Below, piece by piece: positions 11,173 to 54,682 of a stretch of DNA of 64,000 bases. The DNA comes from Pseudomonadota bacterium. GTDB lineage: Bacteria; Pseudomonadota; Gammaproteobacteria; Competibacterales; Competibacteraceae. The stretch lies in NCBI GenBank assembly GCA_022709365.1, contig JAKLIY010000021.1, positions 1 through 64,000 on the forward strand, read 5' to 3'. Under the pieces are notes generated by a model that saw only the letters and a program-made list of their open reading frames with translations, did not search any database and was not told the origin of the DNA. The translations under genes and the position numbers were made by a program. The number at the start of each line of letters is the position of its first letter. Position 1 is the first letter of the stretch.

Positions 11173-13574
11173 AAAGCCCCGCCGGCAAAGTCGTAGCTCA
11201 TTTCACGGTAGGGATGTTGCAGGAAAAAGCCCTGAATCAGATCGACGCCCAGCGACCAAAGAATCGGCATGGTCTGCACATCTTCGACCCCACCGACGAT
11301 CGTGGCGGCGCCCAACGACTCCAGACTCTGCACCAACTCTTTGAGTTGGGCCTGCTTCTTGGAATCCTTGGCGAGATTGTTGACGAAGTGTATGTCCAAT
11401 TTGACGTAATCTGCACCCAAGTTTTTCAACAGGTTCAGCGAATCCGCACCCCGACCAAAGCGGTCCAGGCAAAACCCGCAACCGAGCAACTTAATACCAC
11501 TCAGAAAGGCAAACATGTCGCGCAGGCTGCGTTCAGCAGTCGATTCAGCCACCTCGAACACCAGGCGCTGTGCCTCAACGTGATTTTGCTCCAACTGCTC
11601 GCGCAACCAGGCGCTCAGCGTTTTATCCTGCAACGTCACCGGCAACACCTTAATAAACAGGGTCGTGGCTTGCTGCCGTTGCTGCAGCATTTCCAGCGCG
11701 TGCGCGATCACCCAGCGATCCAGCGCCAATCCCAGTTCATGATTGTAGACCACGCCAAATACGCTGCCTGGCACCAGATCCTGCCCCTGACGGTCGCGCA
11801 AGCGCAGCAACGCCTCATAGCGCTCATTGGTATCGCCACGCATGCTGGCCACCGGCTGAAACACCAGCCAAAGCCATTCATGCTCGACAATTTCGCGCAC
11901 CTGATCGAGGACCCGCGCCCGCGAGGAAATTTCCTGGTCACGTTGCACCTGAGGGGCGTTTTGCTGGAGGTAAATACGTTCGCCCTTGGCTTCCCGCGCC
12001 AGCCCACAAGCGGAATCCGCTCGCTGGATCAGCATCAGGTGGTCCTGGCTGCGGTCATTGGTGAAAGCGATGCCGATGCTGGTCCGTAACAGCAACGCCT
12101 GATCACCCACCTTGTAAAACCCGGTCTCCAGGGCGTCGCGGATACGCCGAGCCAACTTGAGCGGCGCTTCGCCGAACAGATTCGGCGCCAGCACCGTGAG
12201 AATGGAATCGCTAAACCGCGCAGCAAGCTGGTCGGCGCTCAACACACTCCGTAACCGGGTCGCCGCCTGGCCGACTACTTCATCGGCGGTCGCCACTCCG
12301 GCCGAATCGCGGATGGTTCGCAGATTGTCCAACATGATGAAAATTAAGGTCAGAGTCTGCCGGCGCAGTCCCATTGCTTCCAATTCCCGCTCCAGCAACA
12401 TCATGAACCGTCGACGGTTGTACAAGCCGCTGATGGCGTCGTTGTCGCTCAGTTGGCTCATCTTCACCCGCAGGGTGCGCGCCCGACGCAGTCGTTGTTT
12501 GACTTCCCAACACAAATAGCTGATAGGCGCGGGTTTAGTCAGCAAACTGGCCCCTGGCGCATCCAGATTCATCAGGTAGTGCGCCACATCCGCTGGGAAA
12601 CACATCAAAATCATCGGCAGCGTATCGAAGTCACGGTGTTGAGCGATCACCCGCGCCAGTTCCGGTCCGCCAACTTCCTTCAGATCGAGATCAATCAGCA
12701 ATAAATCTGGATGGAATCGGTGGATATCCTGTAGAACTTGCAACGGCTGAATCACCACTCGGGGAGTAATCCCCTGCTCCTCCAGCGCCCCGGCCATCTC
12801 CCAAGCCTCAGTCGGTCGGTCATTGACAATCAGCACCCGATAGTAGCTTTCCGAGGTTTGCGGCAATAGCAACTCGCGCAACATCCCCACGACTTCATCA
12901 GTATCGAACGGCTTACTGAAATAGGCGGCGCCACCCGCCTGCACGGCATCCACCCGCGCCGCCATATCATTGCGTTCAGCCAGAAACAGCACCGGTGCCC
13001 GTAAATTAGTCTCAGCGCGCAGGGTCGCGATCATCGACAGTGCGGCTTCCGCACCTTCGGGAAAATCTACGTCAACCACCACCGCCCCGGGCATTCGTTC
13101 CTGCAACCGCTGCTCCGCCTCGTCCAAACTAGCGAAATGTCGCACCCGGTATCCGGAATCTTCGAGTTTGGTCAACAATGGCGGTTTCTCACCGGGGACA
13201 ATGACAAAGATTTCCGGCTGGGCCGCCAGCAATGGGCGGGTTCGGGGTTCATCGTTCGTGCTGCCGCCCGTCGTCAGAATGAAACGCAGCGCATCGATCA
13301 ACGCAGTCAACCGCTGCCGTTCAGCTTCGGCCGGCATTTCGCCAGTGGCTGCGCTACTTTTGACATGCTGCTCCAATTGCGTGACCAGATCGAGCAAACG
13401 CTCATCACCTCGACCCTGGGCGTTTTGCACCATATCCTGCGCCAGGCGGGCCAGCATCGCGAATGATTTGGGATTCCACTTGACATAATACAGTTTCTCC
13501 CACAAATCTTCGATCAATTTCAAGTGATTAGCCAACTTGAGGCGCTGGCTGTCTTGACCTTTCGCCTGGCTCAT
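11169..13574 (-). CDS. FimX-like two-receiver protein with degenerate GGDEF and EAL domains
   Basis: An 801-aa cytoplasmic signalling protein. A helical N-terminus (about 1-100) is followed by two receiver-like domains (about 116-235 and 245-365; VDVDFPEG, LIDLDLKE), a GGDEF domain (375-545) and an EAL domain (550-795). The GGDEF motif has decayed to SDSIL, so cyclase activity is not expected. EAL keeps EALLR, a Glu (FEVAEST), the Lys in YVKLD and QGF, but the metal-binding DDFG is DRFG and AEGVE is GGVE. Catalysis therefore looks lost and a c-di-GMP-binding effector role is likely. Loss of both motifs and the QGFFLQ...YDF ending resemble FimX of type IV pilus control; that link is an inference. 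GGAG precedes the start. Confidence 0.85.
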   Translation of the reverse strand: MSQAKGQDSQRLKLANHLKLIEDLWEKLYYVKWNPKSFAMLARLAQDMVQNAQGRGDERLLDLVTQLEQHVKSSAATGEMPAEAERQRLTALIDALRFILTTGGSTNDEPRTRPLLAAQPEIFVIVPGEKPPLLTKLEDSGYRVRHFASLDEAEQRLQERMPGAVVVDVDFPEGAEAALSMIATLRAETNLRAPVLFLAERNDMAARVDAVQAGGAAYFSKPFDTDEVVGMLRELLLPQTSESYYRVLIVNDRPTEAWEMAGALEEQGITPRVVIQPLQVLQDIHRFHPDLLLIDLDLKEVGGPELARVIAQHRDFDTLPMILMCFPADVAHYLMNLDAPGASLLTKPAPISYLCWEVKQRLRRARTLRVKMSQLSDNDAISGLYNRRRFMMLLERELEAMGLRRQTLTLIFIMLDNLRTIRDSAGVATADEVVGQAATRLRSVLSADQLAARFSDSILTVLAPNLFGEAPLKLARRIRDALETGFYKVGDQALLLRTSIGIAFTNDRSQDHLMLIQRADSACGLAREAKGERIYLQQNAPQVQRDQEISSRARVLDQVREIVEHEWLWLVFQPVASMRGDTNERYEALLRLRDRQGQDLVPGSVFGVVYNHELGLALDRWVIAHALEMLQQRQQATTLFIKVLPVTLQDKTLSAWLREQLEQNHVEAQRLVFEVAESTAERSLRDMFAFLSGIKLLGCGFCLDRFGRGADSLNLLKNLGADYVKLDIHFVNNLAKDSKKQAQLKELVQSLESLGAATIVGGVEDVQTMPILWSLGVDLIQGFFLQHPYREMSYDFAGGAF

Positions 13575-47070: not shown

Positions 47071-49485
47071 TTACGGACGACGGGTTTGATCGCCATGCCG
47101 CTCAGACCAGCGATCCCGACGCTCGACCTGGGTTCCGTTGCCCTGGGTCCAGCGAGTCACCGCCTGATCCGCATCGTTCAGACCCCGCTGAATTTCTGTG
47201 CCGACTGACGCGCCGGTTCGGCCCATCCAACTCGTGAGCGCCTCGACATCGCGGCGGATGCCCGCCGAAGCGCGAGCGGCGTCTTCCTGGAACTGGGTGA
47301 CGGGATCGATGGGGCGGGGCGCAGGTGGTTTCGGCGGGGCCGCGGCGGGAGTTATGGATTTAGGTGTGTTCGTTGGTTGCGCCGGACGAACGGGGGTGGT
47401 AGTCGGCGCAGGCGCAGTGCGGCTGACCAGATTGATCGGTGGAAGGGCCGGCGGCGTTGGTTTAGGTTGCGGACGCGATTCCAGCCGGATCGGTGGGAGG
47501 GTTGGTGGCGTTGGTTCAGGTTGCGGACGCGACTCCAGCCGGATCGGCGGGAAGGTCGGCGACGTTGTTTGTAGACGCGGTTCAGCACGGGCGACTGGGC
47601 TGGCAGGCGCAACCGTAGCGGGCCGAGTCGTTGCTGGAGGCAACGAAGGCGTCGTTTTGACCGTGCGCTGGGTACGAACCGGTGCTGCGGATTTATCCCG
47701 GTGCAGCGGAGGGGTGACCTTGACGGTGCGCGGCGGTGCGCGGCGAGAGATTTCTGGTCCCGGCGCGGCGGGAATTTTCGGTTCAGGTTTGGCCACTGAA
47801 GGAGCGACAGGTGCTTTCGGTTCGGGTTTAGCTACGGGGCGAGCAACAAACGGTGGTACGACAGGTGCTTTCGGTTCGGGTTTGGCCACCGGAGGAGCAG
47901 CCGGCAGTGCGGCGGGTGATTTCGGTTCGGGTTTGGCTACTGGGGAAGCGACAGGCGGCGCGGCAGGCGGTTCCGCGATTTCGACAGCGACTGGCTTGCT
48001 GTCCAGTTGGCTTCCGGAGTCTACGACTGGCGCAATCTCTGGTTCGATAGCGGGTTTGGAGACTGCGACTGGCGCAATCTCTGATTCGATAGCGGGTTTG
48101 GAGACTGCGACTGGCGCAGTCTCTGGTTCGATAGCAGGTGCGATTTTGGAATCTGCGACGGGTTGTTCCGGAACGACGGGCGATTCAGGCGCTGGCGAGG
48201 GGGCGTCTATCGGGGCGATCGGAGCGGGTTCCACAGCGACGGGCGCGGTCGTGATCACGGCATCCGGTACGATGGGATGATTCTGCGGCAGTTCACTCAT
48301 CGGTCGGATGACGATGGCCCAAGCCAGCGTACCGGCCAATCCCATCATGCCAACCAGCGCTGCAGCCCGGCGCAGCCCGGGCGAGCGGCTCGCGGTTCCG
48401 ACTTGGCGGCGATGCCGGTTGGGCGGCAGGGGCGGGGGCGGCGGCAGATCCCAGTCCGCGACGATGGCTGGCGTATCCGGGGTCGGCGCGAGGGTCAGCG
48501 GTTCGGCTTGCCCTAAACGCACCGTGTTCAAAACTGTGCGGATTTCGGCGCTGTCCTGGGGGCGTTCGGCAGGATCGCGGGCCAGCAGGCGGTCGATGAA
48601 TGCAGTCAGCCGCGCCGCAGCGCCGTTACCGGGCAAGGTTAATACGGGAACCGTCCAGAATTCAATGGATTGCCGCAGCAGTTCCCGCTCCTCGTCGTTT
48701 AACCCTCCGAGCTGTTCGCCATGCTGGGCGGCGCCTTCCTGGCCGTGTTGAGCCAGCAGTTGACCCAGCCGGCGCTGCGCGGCAGTGGCGGGCTGACGGG
48801 TGAACAGGCCAAACAGCAGCAGACCTAAAGCATAATAGTCGGCGCGGTAGTCCACGGCGTATTCGCCGCCTTCGGGGCCAAAACGCACGGGGAGCGCCTG
48901 CTCCGGAGCCATGGTGGCGGGGGTGCCGATGAAGGAACGGGTGCTGTCGCCATTCTCACGCTTGAGCGAGCCGAAATCAGCCAGTTTGAGCTGCTCACCC
49001 CGTTGATCAACCAGGATGTTGCTGAATTTCAGATCACGGTAAACGAAACCGGCATGATGAATCACCTCCAGACCGGCCAGGATTTGCCCGGCCCAGTCGA
49101 GAATCCGCTCCAGATCGGGGGGCGGCGCATTGTCCCGTCGTTGCTGCGCCAGCCACTGGCCGAGATTGGCCACCAGCCGTTCCAGGACCAGCACCGGTTG
49201 CCCATCCATCTGGCCGTGGTCGAGCAGGGTGACGATGTGGCGGGACTGCTCGGCGCTCAAACTCGCCAGGAAGGCGATTTCCCGCTCCAGATGCGCTCGC
49301 CAGTGACCGCGCAGACTGGGATCGGCCTGGGACATCGCTTCGGTGTTGATAAATTTGAGGGCGACCGCATGACCCGCATCATCTGTCGCCGCCCAAACCT
49401 GACCATAGCTGCCCACACCCGTGGACAGCACGGCATCCAGTTGGTATTCCCGGCTGTCAATGACAATCCATTCGCCGTTTTTCAT
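47071..49485 (-). CDS. Membrane-anchored Ser/Thr protein kinase with Pro/Ala-rich tail
   Basis: A Hanks-type kinase of 804 residues from ATG 49485 (GGAG eight bases upstream). The kinase domain (about 14-290) has STGVGSYGQVW, Lys44 in VALKFI, catalytic Asp151 and Asn156 in YRDLKFSNIL (Tyr for the usual His), Asp170 in ADFGS and an APE-like MAPEQ. One membrane helix (LVGMMGLAGTLAWAIVI) follows at about 375-395. The outer part is long and low-complexity: repeats of VAKPEPKxP, AVSKPAIExEIAPV and PPIRLESRPQP, then a final amphipathic helix. No PASTA domains are present. It is divergent from FHA and SEDS genes, its likely partners. Confidence 0.9.
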   Translation of the reverse strand: MKNGEWIVIDSREYQLDAVLSTGVGSYGQVWAATDDAGHAVALKFINTEAMSQADPSLRGHWRAHLEREIAFLASLSAEQSRHIVTLLDHGQMDGQPVLVLERLVANLGQWLAQQRRDNAPPPDLERILDWAGQILAGLEVIHHAGFVYRDLKFSNILVDQRGEQLKLADFGSLKRENGDSTRSFIGTPATMAPEQALPVRFGPEGGEYAVDYRADYYALGLLLFGLFTRQPATAAQRRLGQLLAQHGQEGAAQHGEQLGGLNDEERELLRQSIEFWTVPVLTLPGNGAAARLTAFIDRLLARDPAERPQDSAEIRTVLNTVRLGQAEPLTLAPTPDTPAIVADWDLPPPPPLPPNRHRRQVGTASRSPGLRRAAALVGMMGLAGTLAWAIVIRPMSELPQNHPIVPDAVITTAPVAVEPAPIAPIDAPSPAPESPVVPEQPVADSKIAPAIEPETAPVAVSKPAIESEIAPVAVSKPAIEPEIAPVVDSGSQLDSKPVAVEIAEPPAAPPVASPVAKPEPKSPAALPAAPPVAKPEPKAPVVPPFVARPVAKPEPKAPVAPSVAKPEPKIPAAPGPEISRRAPPRTVKVTPPLHRDKSAAPVRTQRTVKTTPSLPPATTRPATVAPASPVARAEPRLQTTSPTFPPIRLESRPQPEPTPPTLPPIRLESRPQPKPTPPALPPINLVSRTAPAPTTTPVRPAQPTNTPKSITPAAAPPKPPAPRPIDPVTQFQEDAARASAGIRRDVEALTSWMGRTGASVGTEIQRGLNDADQAVTRWTQGNGTQVERRDRWSERHGDQTRRP

Positions 49486-49582
49486 GGGACATTCTCCGGA
49501 TTCCATGACTCGGTAAGAGTCTAATATTCAGTAAACTCACCGGCTATGACTGATCAAGATACTCCACTTTTCATGATTGCGC

Positions 49583-50089
49583 ATGGAACCCAAATCCAGA
49601 CTGAATCAACCCAATGGGATATTTTCCCTCCTGTTGGCGGCTGTGAGCATCGGGCTTTTATACGGGCGGCTGGCGGTGCTTTACGCGCCAGCGCTGCCAG
49701 CCACCCAGCCAGAAACCGCTGATAAAACCAGCCCCACTGAAAAAACAGCCAGGCGGCGCGAGGACGCTGAGCTGTTTGACCAGGCGCTGAATGCAGGTCT
49801 GTTGCGGCCCGATAGCGGGGGGCGGATTGCGGTGGCGCCGGCTGATTTGCCCGTGCGTCAGCGTTGGGCCAGCGACCATCCTGATCTACTCGCGCCGCAA
49901 AGCGACGACGAGCCGGACTGGCTGGATGGTGCCTGGGATGATGAGGTCAGTCGTTTGCACCGAGCGCTGCATTTCAGCGCCTCCGGCCGCTATGTGCGTC
50001 AACAAATCGAGGACTTCAACGTCCGGCGACCGGAGTTTCCGCACATCCAGCGGCGGGATGGGCGGCTGGTCTGGCGCGACCGGCTTTAA
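49583..50089 (+). CDS. Hypothetical single-pass membrane protein
   Basis: About 168 residues from ATG 49583. One membrane segment (GIFSLLLAAVSIGLLYGRLAVLYA, about 11-34) is followed by a charged soluble part, with RREDAELFDQALNAGLLRPDSGGRI and a conserved-looking SASGRYVRQQIEDFNVRRPEFPHIQ end. I do not recognise a family. It lies between the divergent kinase and the SEDS/FHA genes, in the direction of the latter and 52 bp before them, so it probably belongs to the same system. Confidence 0.65.
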   Translation: MEPKSRLNQPNGIFSLLLAAVSIGLLYGRLAVLYAPALPATQPETADKTSPTEKTARRREDAELFDQALNAGLLRPDSGGRIAVAPADLPVRQRWASDHPDLLAPQSDDEPDWLDGAWDDEVSRLHRALHFSASGRYVRQQIEDFNVRRPEFPHIQRRDGRLVWRDRL

Positions 50090-50141
50090 GAAGTTGTACA
50101 AGACCGCTCCTGAAAAATGACGGGGAAGAGGGTAAGAATTG

Positions 50142-52460
50142 ATGCCATTATTCGTGGTCAGCCATCGGAGATGGCTATTGCTGATCTGGCTGTTGCCGGT
50201 GCTGGGCGTAGGGTGGACGGTAGCGCAGGCGCCGGCCTGGCGGGAGCCGCGTAGTCTGACCGTGGCGCTGGAGCCGGGTCAGAGCGTCGTGCTAGGTCGG
50301 GAGGCGCTGGCGGCTTTGCAGGCGGACAGCGAACATCTACGGGTGAGCCGCGATCAGGATGGCAACTGGCGGTTGGCGAATCTCTCTCCCGGCAAGCAGG
50401 TGGTGTGGCAACCGGACGGAGGCTGGAATGATCGGTCGACCCGGGAATGGCCGTTGACGCCCGGCGCTGCGTTTGTCATCGGCACCCAATTGTTCGAGGT
50501 GCTGATAGTGAAGCCGGACCGGCTGGTCATGCAAAGCGCTGGCCGGCGCTGGGAATATGATGGCTTCAGCCTGCGATTGGAGGAGCGGCAACTGCCGGAG
50601 TGCTATGAAAATTGGCGAACCGTTTTCCGCGAACGCCTGGGCGGTTGGCCCGGTTTGCGCCGCTGGCTGCAGCGCCCGCTACGGTTGGGCGGCGGAGTTT
50701 ATTGCGCTGACCGACTGGGCTTGGCGGGCGCGCCAGTCGATACTGCGATGCTGGCATCGGACCGAGTCGGTTTTGTATTACGTCCCGGCCTCGCCGCTGG
50801 GCGACCCGATAGCCCGCCGGTGATTATTGCAGCAGGTACGCCGGAAGCGGAAGCGCTATGGCTGCGTTCCATTCCGCTGGTCGTGGGCGATGGCTTGATC
50901 ATTGGCCGTACCAGGTATCGAGTGGCGCAAACAGCGCCGACGCTGAAGTTGACCGTGCTGACTCGCGCCTGGCGCTGGCTGGACGGTGCGGAGCCACCGG
51001 CGACTTCGTCAGCGATATCTGTTCAATGGCGGACAGTGACGTGGTGGCGGCCACTGAACGTTGCGGGTTTGGCATGGCCGCTCGGGCTGGGACTGGCCGC
51101 ACTGGCGCTGGGGTGGGTAGGTTTGCGTGGGGGCTGGCGGATAACGGTGGCGCTGGCGCTGGCCGGCGTGAGCCTGGGCTTGCATTTGAGCAGTCTGGTG
51201 ACGCCGATGCTATGGTCATATGGGCTGGCTTGGTCAATCCTGGGTCTTTGGTTAATCACGGTGCGTTCGCGGTGGAGCGCCCGGTTGTTGGCGGCGCTCA
51301 CTCTGTTGCTCGGTATCGGACTGGTCGCTGGGTTGCAATTGGCAGTCGGCGCTGGGGAATCAGGCTGGTCGCATTATGGCGGCAGCAGCGCGGCGCTGGC
51401 CGGGGCCTTCGGTTGGCTGGCCTGGGCCGGGTGGAACTATGGACAGCAACAGCGCTCAGGATGGCCAAAATTGTGTCGGGTGCGAGGGGGGTTGCGACTG
51501 CTGGGCGGTGCGGCGATGGGATTGTTGATTATGCAGGTCATGTGGGGTGACGAGGGCGGCTGGGGCGGGTTTCAACCCTTTGAGCTGATCAAACTGGCGC
51601 TGGTGACCACGGCAGCCTATGGTTTGGCGTCGCGCAGGCATCGGTGGGAATCGTCCGGAAGCTTTGGCAAACTCTTACAGGGGTGGCGTTATTTGAGGCC
51701 CGTCGTGTTACTGGCGATGGTGAGCGGTTTCGCGCTGGCATTTCTGCGCGATTTTTCACCCCTGCTGTTGCTGGCATTTTGGATCATCGCGTTGATCTGG
51801 AGTTGGGCGCGTGTTCATCCCCAACCGGCTTGGCGCGGGCTAGGCCGGTTGACCGCCTTAGCGCTGGTCTTGTCCGCGATAGCCGGACTAGCGTGGCTGC
51901 GCGAGCAGCCGGAGAATTTTCCGCTGGATTTTCAAGCTGATCGCATTCGAGTGTGGGCAGGGCCGGAGCAATATCCTCATGCGGGCTATCAATTGCGGCG
52001 GGCGCTGGAGGCGATCCGCGCCGGCGGTTGGCAGGGGACGGTCTGGAACGAGCCGATCAATGGCCGGATCATGACCCTGCCGGCAGTGGAGAATGATTTC
52101 ATGCCAGCCTTCTTGCTGAACCGCTATGGTGGACTGGCGGCGCTGATTTTGGTCGGGATTCAGGCGGCGTTTATCGGCCTCCTGCTCACTATTGGGGATC
52201 GCGCGGCATACCGGGCTGGATGCAACGATGACCCCTTGACCGCGCCGGGTGGGTTCATCTATTTCACCCTTTATGGCGGCGCGGCTCTGCTGGTTGCGCA
52301 TTTTATGGTTTCATGGGGCGCCAATTTGGGATTTCTGCCGGTAATGGGTCAACCGATGTCGTTGCTGTCAACCGCTGGCAGTCATCTGACGCTGTTCGTA
52401 CTGCCGATCGTGGCGCTGGCCGTTGCGGTTGAGGAAAAAGAAGATGACAACCCATCCTGA
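50142..52460 (+). CDS. SEDS-family (FtsW/RodA-like) protein with FHA-like N-terminus
   Basis: A protein of about 772 residues from ATG 50142. After an N-terminal signal-anchor (WLLLIWLLPVLGVGWTVA), residues about 35-300 form two beta-rich regions; the first reads like an FHA domain (VVLGREALAALQ, LRVSRDQDGNWRLANLSPG). Residues about 310-770 are polytopic and match SEDS glycosyltransferases: Asp652 in VENDFMPAFLLNRYGG corresponds to the essential Asp of RodA/FtsW, and HFMVSWGANLGFLPVMGQPMSLLSTAGSHL is the family end. It probably polymerises glycan from lipid II, with an input from phosphoprotein recognition. The FHA gene overlaps its 3' end by 17 bp. No cognate class B PBP is adjacent. Confidence 0.82.
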   Translation: MPLFVVSHRRWLLLIWLLPVLGVGWTVAQAPAWREPRSLTVALEPGQSVVLGREALAALQADSEHLRVSRDQDGNWRLANLSPGKQVVWQPDGGWNDRSTREWPLTPGAAFVIGTQLFEVLIVKPDRLVMQSAGRRWEYDGFSLRLEERQLPECYENWRTVFRERLGGWPGLRRWLQRPLRLGGGVYCADRLGLAGAPVDTAMLASDRVGFVLRPGLAAGRPDSPPVIIAAGTPEAEALWLRSIPLVVGDGLIIGRTRYRVAQTAPTLKLTVLTRAWRWLDGAEPPATSSAISVQWRTVTWWRPLNVAGLAWPLGLGLAALALGWVGLRGGWRITVALALAGVSLGLHLSSLVTPMLWSYGLAWSILGLWLITVRSRWSARLLAALTLLLGIGLVAGLQLAVGAGESGWSHYGGSSAALAGAFGWLAWAGWNYGQQQRSGWPKLCRVRGGLRLLGGAAMGLLIMQVMWGDEGGWGGFQPFELIKLALVTTAAYGLASRRHRWESSGSFGKLLQGWRYLRPVVLLAMVSGFALAFLRDFSPLLLLAFWIIALIWSWARVHPQPAWRGLGRLTALALVLSAIAGLAWLREQPENFPLDFQADRIRVWAGPEQYPHAGYQLRRALEAIRAGGWQGTVWNEPINGRIMTLPAVENDFMPAFLLNRYGGLAALILVGIQAAFIGLLLTIGDRAAYRAGCNDDPLTAPGGFIYFTLYGGAALLVAHFMVSWGANLGFLPVMGQPMSLLSTAGSHLTLFVLPIVALAVAVEEKEDDNPS

Positions 52461-54267
52461 TGCGCTGGTCGCATCTGACTATGTAGTTTGCGCGACCTTG
52501 CGCAAAATCCCGGACGTATTCAACGTCGAGTTACTCTGGGAGCGGGTTCGGGGTGGTCAGGAAGGCGTGTTTTTGCTGGAGGCGCTCAAGCGTTATCCCC
52601 GCGCGCCCCGCGCCCGCCAGCGCCGGGAGATGTACTACAGCCAGGTCATCGTAAGGATTCCGGAGCGCGACTATATCCGCGATGATCGGTTGGAGGATAG
52701 TCTTGGGCGGCGTACCCTGATACGGGAACTGCAACGCCTGCATGAACAGGAATTGGGCCGCTTTCTGACTGAGAACGCGGTGATTCGCTATCGCGTGGAA
52801 CCAGATTCGGCGCTGCGGCCCGGCGAAGCGCAATTTTTGTTTGGTCGGGCAATTTATGTGCCGGCTGAGGGCGAGACCGCCCTGTTCCGGATAGAAGCAG
52901 CCGCGGAGGGACATGGCGAGTGGCGGGATTTGGGGCCGATCTATCCCGGCCAGCGGCTGACGCTGTTGAATAGCGACCGGCGAGCCAGTAGCTTTGCCGT
53001 GATGGCCTGGCCGTTCATCGGCGGCGAGTCGGTGTTGCTAATGCTGCGCTCGGGTCCGTCAGAGATCGTGGATGTGGTGGCCGAACCGCCCGGGTGCCTG
53101 ACCCTGACCGGCGATGAGGCGGGCGGGTTTCTGGCGCGTGATCGCCGGAACCGGGGATTGCGACTGCGGGTTATGGCGCCAGCCGCTGATGTGGAGTCGT
53201 TAGTGGCGCAGGAGTCGTCAGCGGATGTTGCAACGCCCGTTGCCTCACTGGTCAGAGTACCCGCTGTTGTTCCGTTGGCAGGATCGCCGGAACTGGTGCG
53301 GCAATCCGCACCGTTGCGGGAATCTGAGCCATCGTTGATGTCGCTGGATGAGGATTATCCGCAGGTCGATCCCTGGGGTCGGCGTGAACCCGTGCTGGGC
53401 ATTTCCATTGATTTCGATGATCCACCGCCGCCCCTGGAGTCTGATGTCCTGGCCTCCAAGCCCACTCCCAAGCCGGTTTCCCCAAGACCCTTACCCTCAG
53501 CCCCTCTCCCGCTCAAGGAGAGTGCGAGTTTGGAGGTGGATACTCCGCTACCGGTGCCTGCTGTGCTGGGGATGGATCAGGGGACCTGGATTCCCCGACG
53601 GTCACCGGCCTGCCTGAAGGTGATGGGGGTGGCTCTGCAACGGTTATCGACCTATGCGCCTGCAGGCATTAGTGACTGGCGGCTGAGTTTCGACCGTGCC
53701 GGAGGATTGGTGCTGGATGCGAACCCCGAGGCCGCAGCCTGGTTGCGAATTGATAGCGCCGATCGGGTGTTTGGTGAAGTGGCAGGGCAGTCAGCACCAT
53801 TGGAAATACCCGGAGTATGGCAACCGTTTCCGGAGCTGGAACTGAAGCTTTATGCGGTTCCCGAACCCATGGCGGGACATTATCTGGGCTGGATGCGCTT
53901 ACCGACGCCGCTGGAGTTGCCCGTGCCGCGTGGACGGGTGGTGAGTTTCGGGCGCGGCGCGGAAGCGGATATTGCCCCCAAGTTGCTCGCTGATCCGCGG
54001 TCGTTGCGCTGGGAGGGCAATCCAGCCCAGGCGGTGGGTATTAGTGCGGAATATCTGGGTTTGTCGCGCCGCCATCTGTGCTTGCAGGCGCGTCGCGATG
54101 ACTGGTGGGTGCAACTGGGGAGTCAGAACATGCCGGCCTATCGGCTGACGCCGTCCGGGGATCTGCTGGACGTGCTGACGCCGGGGGTCAATACCGCCAC
54201 CGAGGTAAAGCCGGGAGAACTGTTGGTGGCGGGCGGTTACGTGCTGGCGCTCGGAGCGGTGGGATAG
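52444..54267 (+). CDS. FHA-domain protein
   Basis: 607 residues from ATG 52444, inside the end of the SEDS gene. The N-terminal 200 residues form an unrecognised domain (YVVCATLRKIPDVFNVELLWERVRGG). A long Pro/Ser/Glu-rich linker (about 260-385) contains a palindrome-derived stretch. The C-terminal part (about 485-600) is FHA-like: RVVSFGRGAEADI, SRRHLCLQ and a final strand LVAGGYVLALG. FHA domains bind phosphothreonine, so it is a likely reader of the divergent kinase's phosphorylation. No signal peptide or membrane helix is seen, so it is cytoplasmic. Confidence 0.8.
   Translation: MTTHPDALVASDYVVCATLRKIPDVFNVELLWERVRGGQEGVFLLEALKRYPRAPRARQRREMYYSQVIVRIPERDYIRDDRLEDSLGRRTLIRELQRLHEQELGRFLTENAVIRYRVEPDSALRPGEAQFLFGRAIYVPAEGETALFRIEAAAEGHGEWRDLGPIYPGQRLTLLNSDRRASSFAVMAWPFIGGESVLLMLRSGPSEIVDVVAEPPGCLTLTGDEAGGFLARDRRNRGLRLRVMAPAADVESLVAQESSADVATPVASLVRVPAVVPLAGSPELVRQSAPLRESEPSLMSLDEDYPQVDPWGRREPVLGISIDFDDPPPPLESDVLASKPTPKPVSPRPLPSAPLPLKESASLEVDTPLPVPAVLGMDQGTWIPRRSPACLKVMGVALQRLSTYAPAGISDWRLSFDRAGGLVLDANPEAAAWLRIDSADRVFGEVAGQSAPLEIPGVWQPFPELELKLYAVPEPMAGHYLGWMRLPTPLELPVPRGRVVSFGRGAEADIAPKLLADPRSLRWEGNPAQAVGISAEYLGLSRRHLCLQARRDDWWVQLGSQNMPAYRLTPSGDLLDVLTPGVNTATEVKPGELLVAGGYVLALGAVG
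53489..53525. repeat. Palindromic repeat in frame in the FHA gene linker
   Basis: CCTCAGCCCCTCTCCCGCTCAAGGAGAG resembles one arm of the C/G-rich repeat family seen in the nar operon. It is translated as part of PRPLPSAPLPLKESAS in the low-complexity linker, where extra residues should be harmless. Confidence 0.55.
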
Positions 54268-54346
54268 GCTGACAACACCAAAGACGTAACCCAGGAAGAC
54301 GCGCTTTATTGGCCCTTGGGGGCTGGCTTTTCGGGCGGGCTGGATC

Positions 54347-54682
54347 GAAGAAACCGGCGGCAATCGCTCCAACGGCCGCGATAGCGAAATTGAGATTCTG
54401 ACCAACCTTGGCGCCCATGGTGGCGATGCCGATGACGGTTCCATCCCCCAGGATGACTGGACCGCCGCTGTTACCCGGGCTGGTCGGCGCGGAAATCTGG
54501 ATGTAACGTACCCCGTCGATTTCGCGCAATCCACTGATGATATCGTTGGAAAATGCCTCCAACAACGCCAGACCAGGCTTGTTACTCCGCTGGCGGATCC
54601 GGGCGACTGATTCCTGGTCGCCGCAGCGCACCGCCAGGTTGCCGGCTTTCTCGATAACGTGAGCGTTGGTGAGGGTAAGCGG
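54347..54682 (-). pseudogene. Trypsin-like (HtrA-type) serine protease relic
   Basis: On the - strand, in the same frame as and directly after the bioC stop, the DNA reads LTLTNAHVIEKAGNLAVRCG, the catalytic-His segment of S1C proteases. Later comes GVRYIQISAPTSPGNSGGP, the catalytic-Ser segment, then VIGIATMGAKVGQNLNFAI. The signal peptide, the catalytic-Asp region and any PDZ domain are missing, and there is no start codon. It is the remnant of a periplasmic protease gene after N-terminal and internal deletion. HtrA-like proteases often accompany kinase-FHA loci, so it may once have belonged to the neighbouring cluster. Confidence 0.75.

Follow-up and report, generated by a model that had tools for sequence, protein, structure and literature searches.

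A putative third SEDS lineage linked to a Ser/Thr kinase, an FHA protein and an eroded penicillin-binding protein in Competibacteraceae

The window analysed here, a stretch of 64,000 nucleotides from a Competibacteraceae bacterium (contig JAKLIY010000021.1, our G000:C56; host genome 4.16 Mb, 100% complete), carries a cluster of four genes in which a Hanks-type Ser/Thr kinase on the minus strand faces a small open reading frame (ORF), a gene for a divergent SEDS protein and a gene for an FHA-domain protein, all on the plus strand. We regard it as somewhat probable that this locus encodes an accessory glycan polymerase of a third SEDS lineage, controlled by Ser/Thr phosphorylation, whose penicillin-binding protein (PBP) partner has been turned into an activator only. 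The wider proposition, that repeated and separate losses of the transpeptidase made the PBP of a third SEDS lineage an activator only, pared down at the extreme to an anchor and a periplasmic module of ∼95 residues, and that a kinase, a PP2C phosphatase and an FHA protein control this lineage in Gram-negative bacteria, is put forward more tentatively. The four genes are real and their order is conserved. All structures in this analysis are predictions, and most of the genomes compared are metagenome-assembled genomes (MAGs). We found no report of FHA-bearing or kinase-linked SEDS proteins in Proteobacteria in the open-access literature.

The host genome holds three SEDS genes, two of them ordinary (on contigs C62 and C66, 352–364 bits) and the third, that of the window, scoring 73.5 bits. 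The product of this third gene (50142–52460, plus strand, starting at TTG 50139 or ATG 50142) belongs to the SEDS family (PF01098, CAZy GT119) by the family model (72.4 bits, cut-off 26.4, the match being confined to residues 478–760), by a predicted ten-helix fold with a long extracellular loop 4 (residues 590–664) and by the Asp in that loop; it remains below the NCBIfam equivalog cut-offs for FtsW (72.5 against 337.5) and RodA (64.6 against 336.7). A phylogeny against FtsW and RodA, a check suggested in the initial annotation, places the family and its paralogs in loci L084 and L085 in a clade of their own (100/100), separate from the RodA and FtsW of the class, and the protein thus appears, from its sequence, to represent a third lineage outside both. 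A model built from an alignment of 44 homologs (pLDDT 81, pTM 0.80) has 14 membrane helices, and superposes on Pseudomonas aeruginosa FtsW over residues 379–772 (Z 23.3) and on RodA of the RodA–PBP2 complex over residues 374–770 (6pl6, Z 22.6). Asp653 (codon 52095–52097) is invariant in all 44 sequences and occupies the position of the essential Asp of extracellular loop 4, D297 in Escherichia coli FtsW (PMC8765783), making it the putative catalytic Asp. The two paralogs within the clade are diverged, at ∼30% identity (L084:10085–13311 in G029:C63 and L085:8856–11171 in G025:C62). In L084 a protein combining a kinase with an FGE-sulfatase part is encoded upstream of the SEDS paralog and the next gene encodes a YkuD L,D-transpeptidase (12595–13311), with which this SEDS protein is apparently paired in place of a PBP.

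The small ORF (49577–50089, plus strand), initially annotated as encoding an unknown membrane protein, has a conserved start at ATG 49583 (MEPxxxLN in relatives), and alignment indicates that its 168-aa product (49583–50089) is the remnant of a class-B-like PBP of ∼1080 aa that is intact in relatives. In other genomes the same position holds a protein of this length whose C-terminal end is a penicillin-binding transpeptidase domain (48 bits with Pfam). The remnant comprises a membrane anchor, a module of ∼95 residues equivalent to PBP residues 294–390 and a short piece resembling PBP residues ∼535–550; lacking the transpeptidase domain, it does not itself qualify as a class B PBP, and a score above the Pfam cut-off together with the SxxK, SxN and KTG motifs is found only in relatives such as L067, L070 and L086. 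The PBP of the relatives scores 52 bits with NCBIfam pbp2_mrdA, against 455. By alignment the three motifs are intact in six loci (L067, L068, L070, L086, L094 and L095). Six more (L069, L073, L076, L081, L093 and L080) encode a full or nearly full-length protein with broken motifs, including S-x-x-E or A-x-x-S in place of S-x-x-K. The transpeptidase is deleted in 11 loci, leaving 333–393 aa in L065 and L077–L079 and, in the other seven, a 170–223 aa class to which the window copy is assigned along with L064, L066, L071, L074, L075 and L083. The membrane anchor persists in every truncated form, as does the equivalent of PBP residues ∼294–390.

In the tree of the SEDS and FHA proteins, L066, a deleted copy, clusters with four that are active, and L070, itself active, lies among deleted ones. 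A single clade for the rows with a deletion, comprising ten truncated copies and the PBP-less L072, is rejected (p-AU 0.00037), with at least three changes needed, or four losses on the assumption that a lost transpeptidase domain does not return. Additional inactivations are the dead clade L093/L069/L073/L076/L081 and L080, and the transpeptidase has been inactivated or deleted along several lineages. The retained module has a pn/ps of 0.13–0.41, matching that of full-length copies; the small gene is therefore not a free-drifting pseudogene, and the anchor and module are kept under purifying selection. This bears on the alternative that the cluster is decaying, with first the PBP and then the SEDS protein disappearing as the synthase has become superfluous, and with the small ORF as an outgoing pseudogene. 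Such decay would account for the graded truncation of the PBP across loci, for the interrupted SEDS gene of G007 and for the failure to detect one in G001, G006 and G019, but it is unlikely given that pn/ps remains well below 1 long after transpeptidase loss, that the same piece of PBP is kept in lineages with separate losses, and that the SEDS Asp and the operon overlap are retained.

Alternatively, the SEDS protein may polymerise a different undecaprenyl-pyrophosphate-linked glycan without peptide cross-links, which would make a transpeptidase useless. The deep separation from RodA and FtsW, the dispensability of the transpeptidase and a weaker fold match of the SEDS model to WaaL ligase (Z 11.7) agree with this proposal; however, the intact PBP active site in some relatives implies peptidoglycan substrates at least there, and the loci of Oxalobacteraceae include a small SH3_3-like protein, albeit one scoring just under the Pfam cut-off. 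We consider a different glycan distinctly unlikely.

The initial annotation also noted an FHA-like region on the SEDS protein, and structure prediction bears this out. The region (residues ∼34–300; 50238–51038, plus strand) matches FHA folds over residues 34–267 (MDC1 FHA, Z 9.3, root-mean-square deviation 2.2, 88 aligned), with a Foldseek match to 3gqs (prob 0.80). Its proposed role as a phospho-controlled module is not supported. One helix precedes the domain in the model and three lie between it and SEDS helix 1, which aligns with the first transmembrane helix of RodA and FtsW only after these three additional helices. Since the SEDS N-terminus is cytoplasmic in RodA and FtsW, the parity of the 14 helices would place the domain in the periplasm. 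Charge bias agrees with the helix count and the superposition, the Lys/Arg density of loops assigned inside and outside being 0.166 and 0.056 in Competibacteraceae and 0.141 and 0.057 in Oxalobacteraceae, and the domain is accordingly predicted to be periplasmic. Moreover, the column where an FHA Ser would be expected, three before His66, has Asp, Ala or Gly with a single Thr, and Arg54, although kept in 33 of the 44 sequences, is absent in 10 of the 23 from Oxalobacteraceae. Given the periplasmic placement and no conserved FHA Ser, the domain is unlikely to be a reader of kinase signals, and no cytoplasmic kinase would be expected to work by way of it. The rival view that it binds phosphothreonine made by the kinase and gates the synthase draws on the predicted fold and on Arg54; with topology, the ∼2.5–3-fold charge bias in both families and the pocket columns all pointing the other way, we give it very little chance, and as a phospho-reader the domain was ruled out by predicted topology and pocket residues.

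A likely phospho-reader is instead the FhaA-like, cytoplasmic product of the downstream gene (52444–54267, plus strand), judging by its sequence and predicted fold. Its gene overlaps the SEDS gene by 17 bp, as first described, and the identical 17 bp recur in nearly all Competibacteraceae loci. A scan of the window protein gave no Pfam match and a search of PDB sequences with its profile gave nothing relevant, while the model shows an N-terminal alpha/beta domain, a disordered linker and a C-terminal FHA domain (model residues 385–607; 53596–54264; best chains Z 12–13, up to 12.9, with mycobacterial FhaA FHA 3oun at Z 11.8). Because the FHA domain fills the matches, the N-terminal domain was barely probed by the fold search. 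Arg504, Ser541 and Arg542 are invariant in 45 of 45 sequences, the first and second being the phosphate-contacting Arg and Ser expected of an FhaA-type FHA domain. Thr381 (codon 53584–53586), ∼10 residues ahead of the FHA domain, is a candidate phospho-site that 44 of 45 proteins of two families share, mostly as T-[WYF]-x-P, in a linker otherwise unconserved between the families; the lone protein without it comes from the genome with the stop-broken SEDS gene (G007). In OdhI and GarA, a phosphorylated Thr preceding the FHA domain is bound by that same domain. The genes of the cluster are as initially annotated, but its extent to 54682 is not: the cluster ends at 54267, and a truncated trypsin-like serine protease fragment (54188–54631, minus strand) converges on the FHA gene and overlaps its end. 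Pieces homologous to this fragment flank the FHA gene in several relatives.

The kinase (47071–49506, minus strand; PF00069, 115 bits) is a transmembrane Hanks kinase, as first described, with a cytoplasmic kinase domain (residues ∼30–317), a single hydrophobic segment near residue 385 (∼377–397) and a Pro/Ala-rich C-terminal half. A Pfam scan found no PASTA match in it, and it scores 77 against 450 bits with NCBIfam PknB_PASTA_kin. Its orthologs (61–82% identity) accompany the FHA protein from genome to genome, even when unlinked (G001, G004, G009 and G019).

Among 144 relatives, 26 genomes have the SEDS protein and 31 the FHA protein, all of them Competibacteraceae (for the FHA protein Candidatus Competibacter, Contendobacter and other members of the family). 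The arrangement there is a kinase facing a PBP/SEDS/FHA operon, and the kinase adjoins these genes in 21 loci, with L064, L072, L086 and L095 as exceptions. Scanning species genomes with the FHA profile adds 36 loci of Oxalobacteraceae type (L127–L162), mostly from Massilia, with some from Duganella, Pseudoduganella and Telluria and one from an unassigned Pseudomonadota MAG. Kinase, SEDS and FHA genes are contiguous and collinear in 34 of the 36, the other two being cut by contig ends, and the gene order proposed from the window therefore recurs in both families. Downstream comes the small SH3_3-like protein, in many cases followed by a transporter, and then a PP2C phosphatase and an additional FHA-like protein; this second FHA protein of Massilia was not found in Competibacteraceae in a search run without a positive control. 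The system is rare, since only 2 of 398 genomes sampled across the phylum match. In four genomes of the Oxalobacteraceae-containing family (G601, G648, G668 and G672), otherwise complete, the FHA-protein match has one in-frame stop each, and these genes are possibly broken or misjoined.

A phosphatase and a PBP had been reported as missing. This holds for the stretch alone: the genome encodes an ortholog of the Massilia PP2C elsewhere (G000:C1:96014–96934, 45% identity), and the window contains a remnant of the PBP. PP2C orthologs (42–47% identity) occur in 21 Competibacteraceae genomes and are missing from the FHA-less relatives G008, G011, G012 and G018. Among Competibacteraceae genomes at least 93% complete, 16 have both PP2C and FHA protein, five neither, one the FHA protein only and none PP2C only, and PP2C is linked to the cluster in 34 of the 36 Oxalobacteraceae-type loci. 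In a wider family-level sample the corresponding counts are 28 with both, 101 with neither, four with FHA only and 12 with PP2C only; all these counts ignore relatedness among the genomes. In genus g329 (G539, G569, G588, G603, G617, G630, G641, G650, G660 and G670) a PP2C ortholog of ∼55% identity is present with no FHA-protein match, and either the system was lost or the FHA protein is very diverged. The ortholog of the window genome lies beside kinase-like proteins with C-terminal regions resembling sulfatase-modifying factor (L209:7993–14111, G000:C1), similar to the protein upstream of the SEDS paralog in L084.

Several observations weigh against a phosphorylation-controlled synthase with a PBP activator. 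No PBP homolog was detected in the Oxalobacteraceae loci, and an activator role of the PBP is therefore not universal. The SEDS protein is undetectable in four genomes that bear the FHA protein, three of which (G001, G006 and G019) are at least 93% complete with a full FHA gene, and the kinase and FHA protein must therefore also have another role; in L072 the SEDS gene has neither a PBP remnant nor a kinase alongside. The FHA pocket residues His544 and Asn562 are not retained in Oxalobacteraceae, the N-terminal domain of the FHA protein resembles the FhaA N-terminal structure 2lc0 only weakly (prob 0.98, TM 0.40, 81 columns) and not by sequence, and among the SEDS loops none bearing a conserved Thr could be established as a target of the kinase. 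In L090 (G006:C295) the kinase and FHA genes point directly away from each other, the PBP and SEDS genes between them being gone, a layout that suggests a role for the pair without the synthase. In G007:C2 (L082/L123) stop codons and frame changes interrupt the SEDS gene, which lies beside intact kinase and FHA genes.

The likeness to actinobacterial pknB loci, noted from the window alone, grows once relatives are included. Like the fhaA-fhaB-pstP-rodA-pbpA-pknA-pknB locus (operon content and FhaA architecture from PMC11898655), the present system combines a kinase, a SEDS protein, a PBP (in Competibacteraceae relatives), a PP2C phosphatase (linked in Oxalobacteraceae, unlinked in Competibacteraceae) and a protein with a C-terminal FHA domain after a long disordered linker. 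It differs in its divergent SEDS protein with a predicted periplasmic FHA-like domain, in an eroded PBP, in a kinase without PASTA and in having no FhaB; FhaA_N (PF12401) gave no match in the own genome and none above cut-off across 20 genomes. Horizontal acquisition of an actinobacterial locus, for which the pooled gene set, the FhaA FHA fold match and the weak match to 2lc0 could be invoked, has only a small chance in view of the FhaA_N result, the lack of PASTA and of FhaB, and NCBIfam RodA and FtsW scores far below cut-off. Transfer, as raised initially, is thus unsupported, on a tree that comprised no actinobacterial sequences, and that first interpretation is overall partly supported. 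A type VI secretion system (T6SS) Fha/PpkA circuit was considered solely as the other kinase/FHA circuit of Proteobacteria; general Pfam and NCBIfam scans, run on the four genes of the window, named no T6SS family.

From the linkage, conservation, predicted folds, active-site status and selection on the module, we infer the following mechanism for a phosphorylation-controlled SEDS polymerase. The kinase would phosphorylate a target, either Thr381 in the FHA protein or a different one, with PP2C in opposition. The FHA domain would bind phosphothreonine, either its own Thr381 or that of a partner. An intramolecular switch would resemble OdhI and GarA in its conserved Thr shortly before the FHA domain and in the presence of kinase and phosphatase; it would differ in its N-terminal part and in its linkage to a synthase, with intramolecular binding itself a candidate. 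The phosphorylated state may recruit or release the FHA protein at the SEDS complex, which would switch glycan polymerisation on or off. In the periplasm the PBP or its remnant may act as an allosteric activator of the SEDS protein through its anchor and module, the latter being a candidate equivalent of the pedestal, and any cross-linking would fall to other enzymes. The FHA-like domain of the SEDS protein would be a structural or docking module. There is precedent for the PBP step in the bPBP pedestal, which activates SEDS through loop 4 (ECL4), and in division PBPs whose transpeptidase is dispensable while the protein is essential (PMC8078798). As in RodA–PBP2 and FtsW–FtsI, a ten-helix SEDS fold with the essential loop-4 Asp is found here and, in Competibacteraceae, a PBP partner with a single anchor helix; four extra helices, a periplasmic domain of ∼270 aa, a separate clade and a partner that loses its transpeptidase or is absent set the system apart. 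In Bacillus subtilis PBP2B and Staphylococcus aureus PBP1 the partner likewise matters apart from transpeptidation (PMC8078798), but there the domain is kept and was inactivated only in the laboratory, whereas here it has been inactivated or removed in nature.

The eroded partner bears on how class B PBPs activate SEDS polymerases, cross-linking aside: cut back along several lineages to a possible minimal activating unit, it provides a natural test of the true purpose of such a PBP. The locus also offers, in Gram-negative bacteria, a circuit of kinase, phosphatase and FHA protein with linkage to a SEDS protein, comparable with the mycobacterial PknB/FhaA circuit and present in genera with cultivated strains such as Massilia. 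For the host, a wastewater-type bacterium, it would mean a third, deeply diverged glycan polymerase besides the two standard ones.

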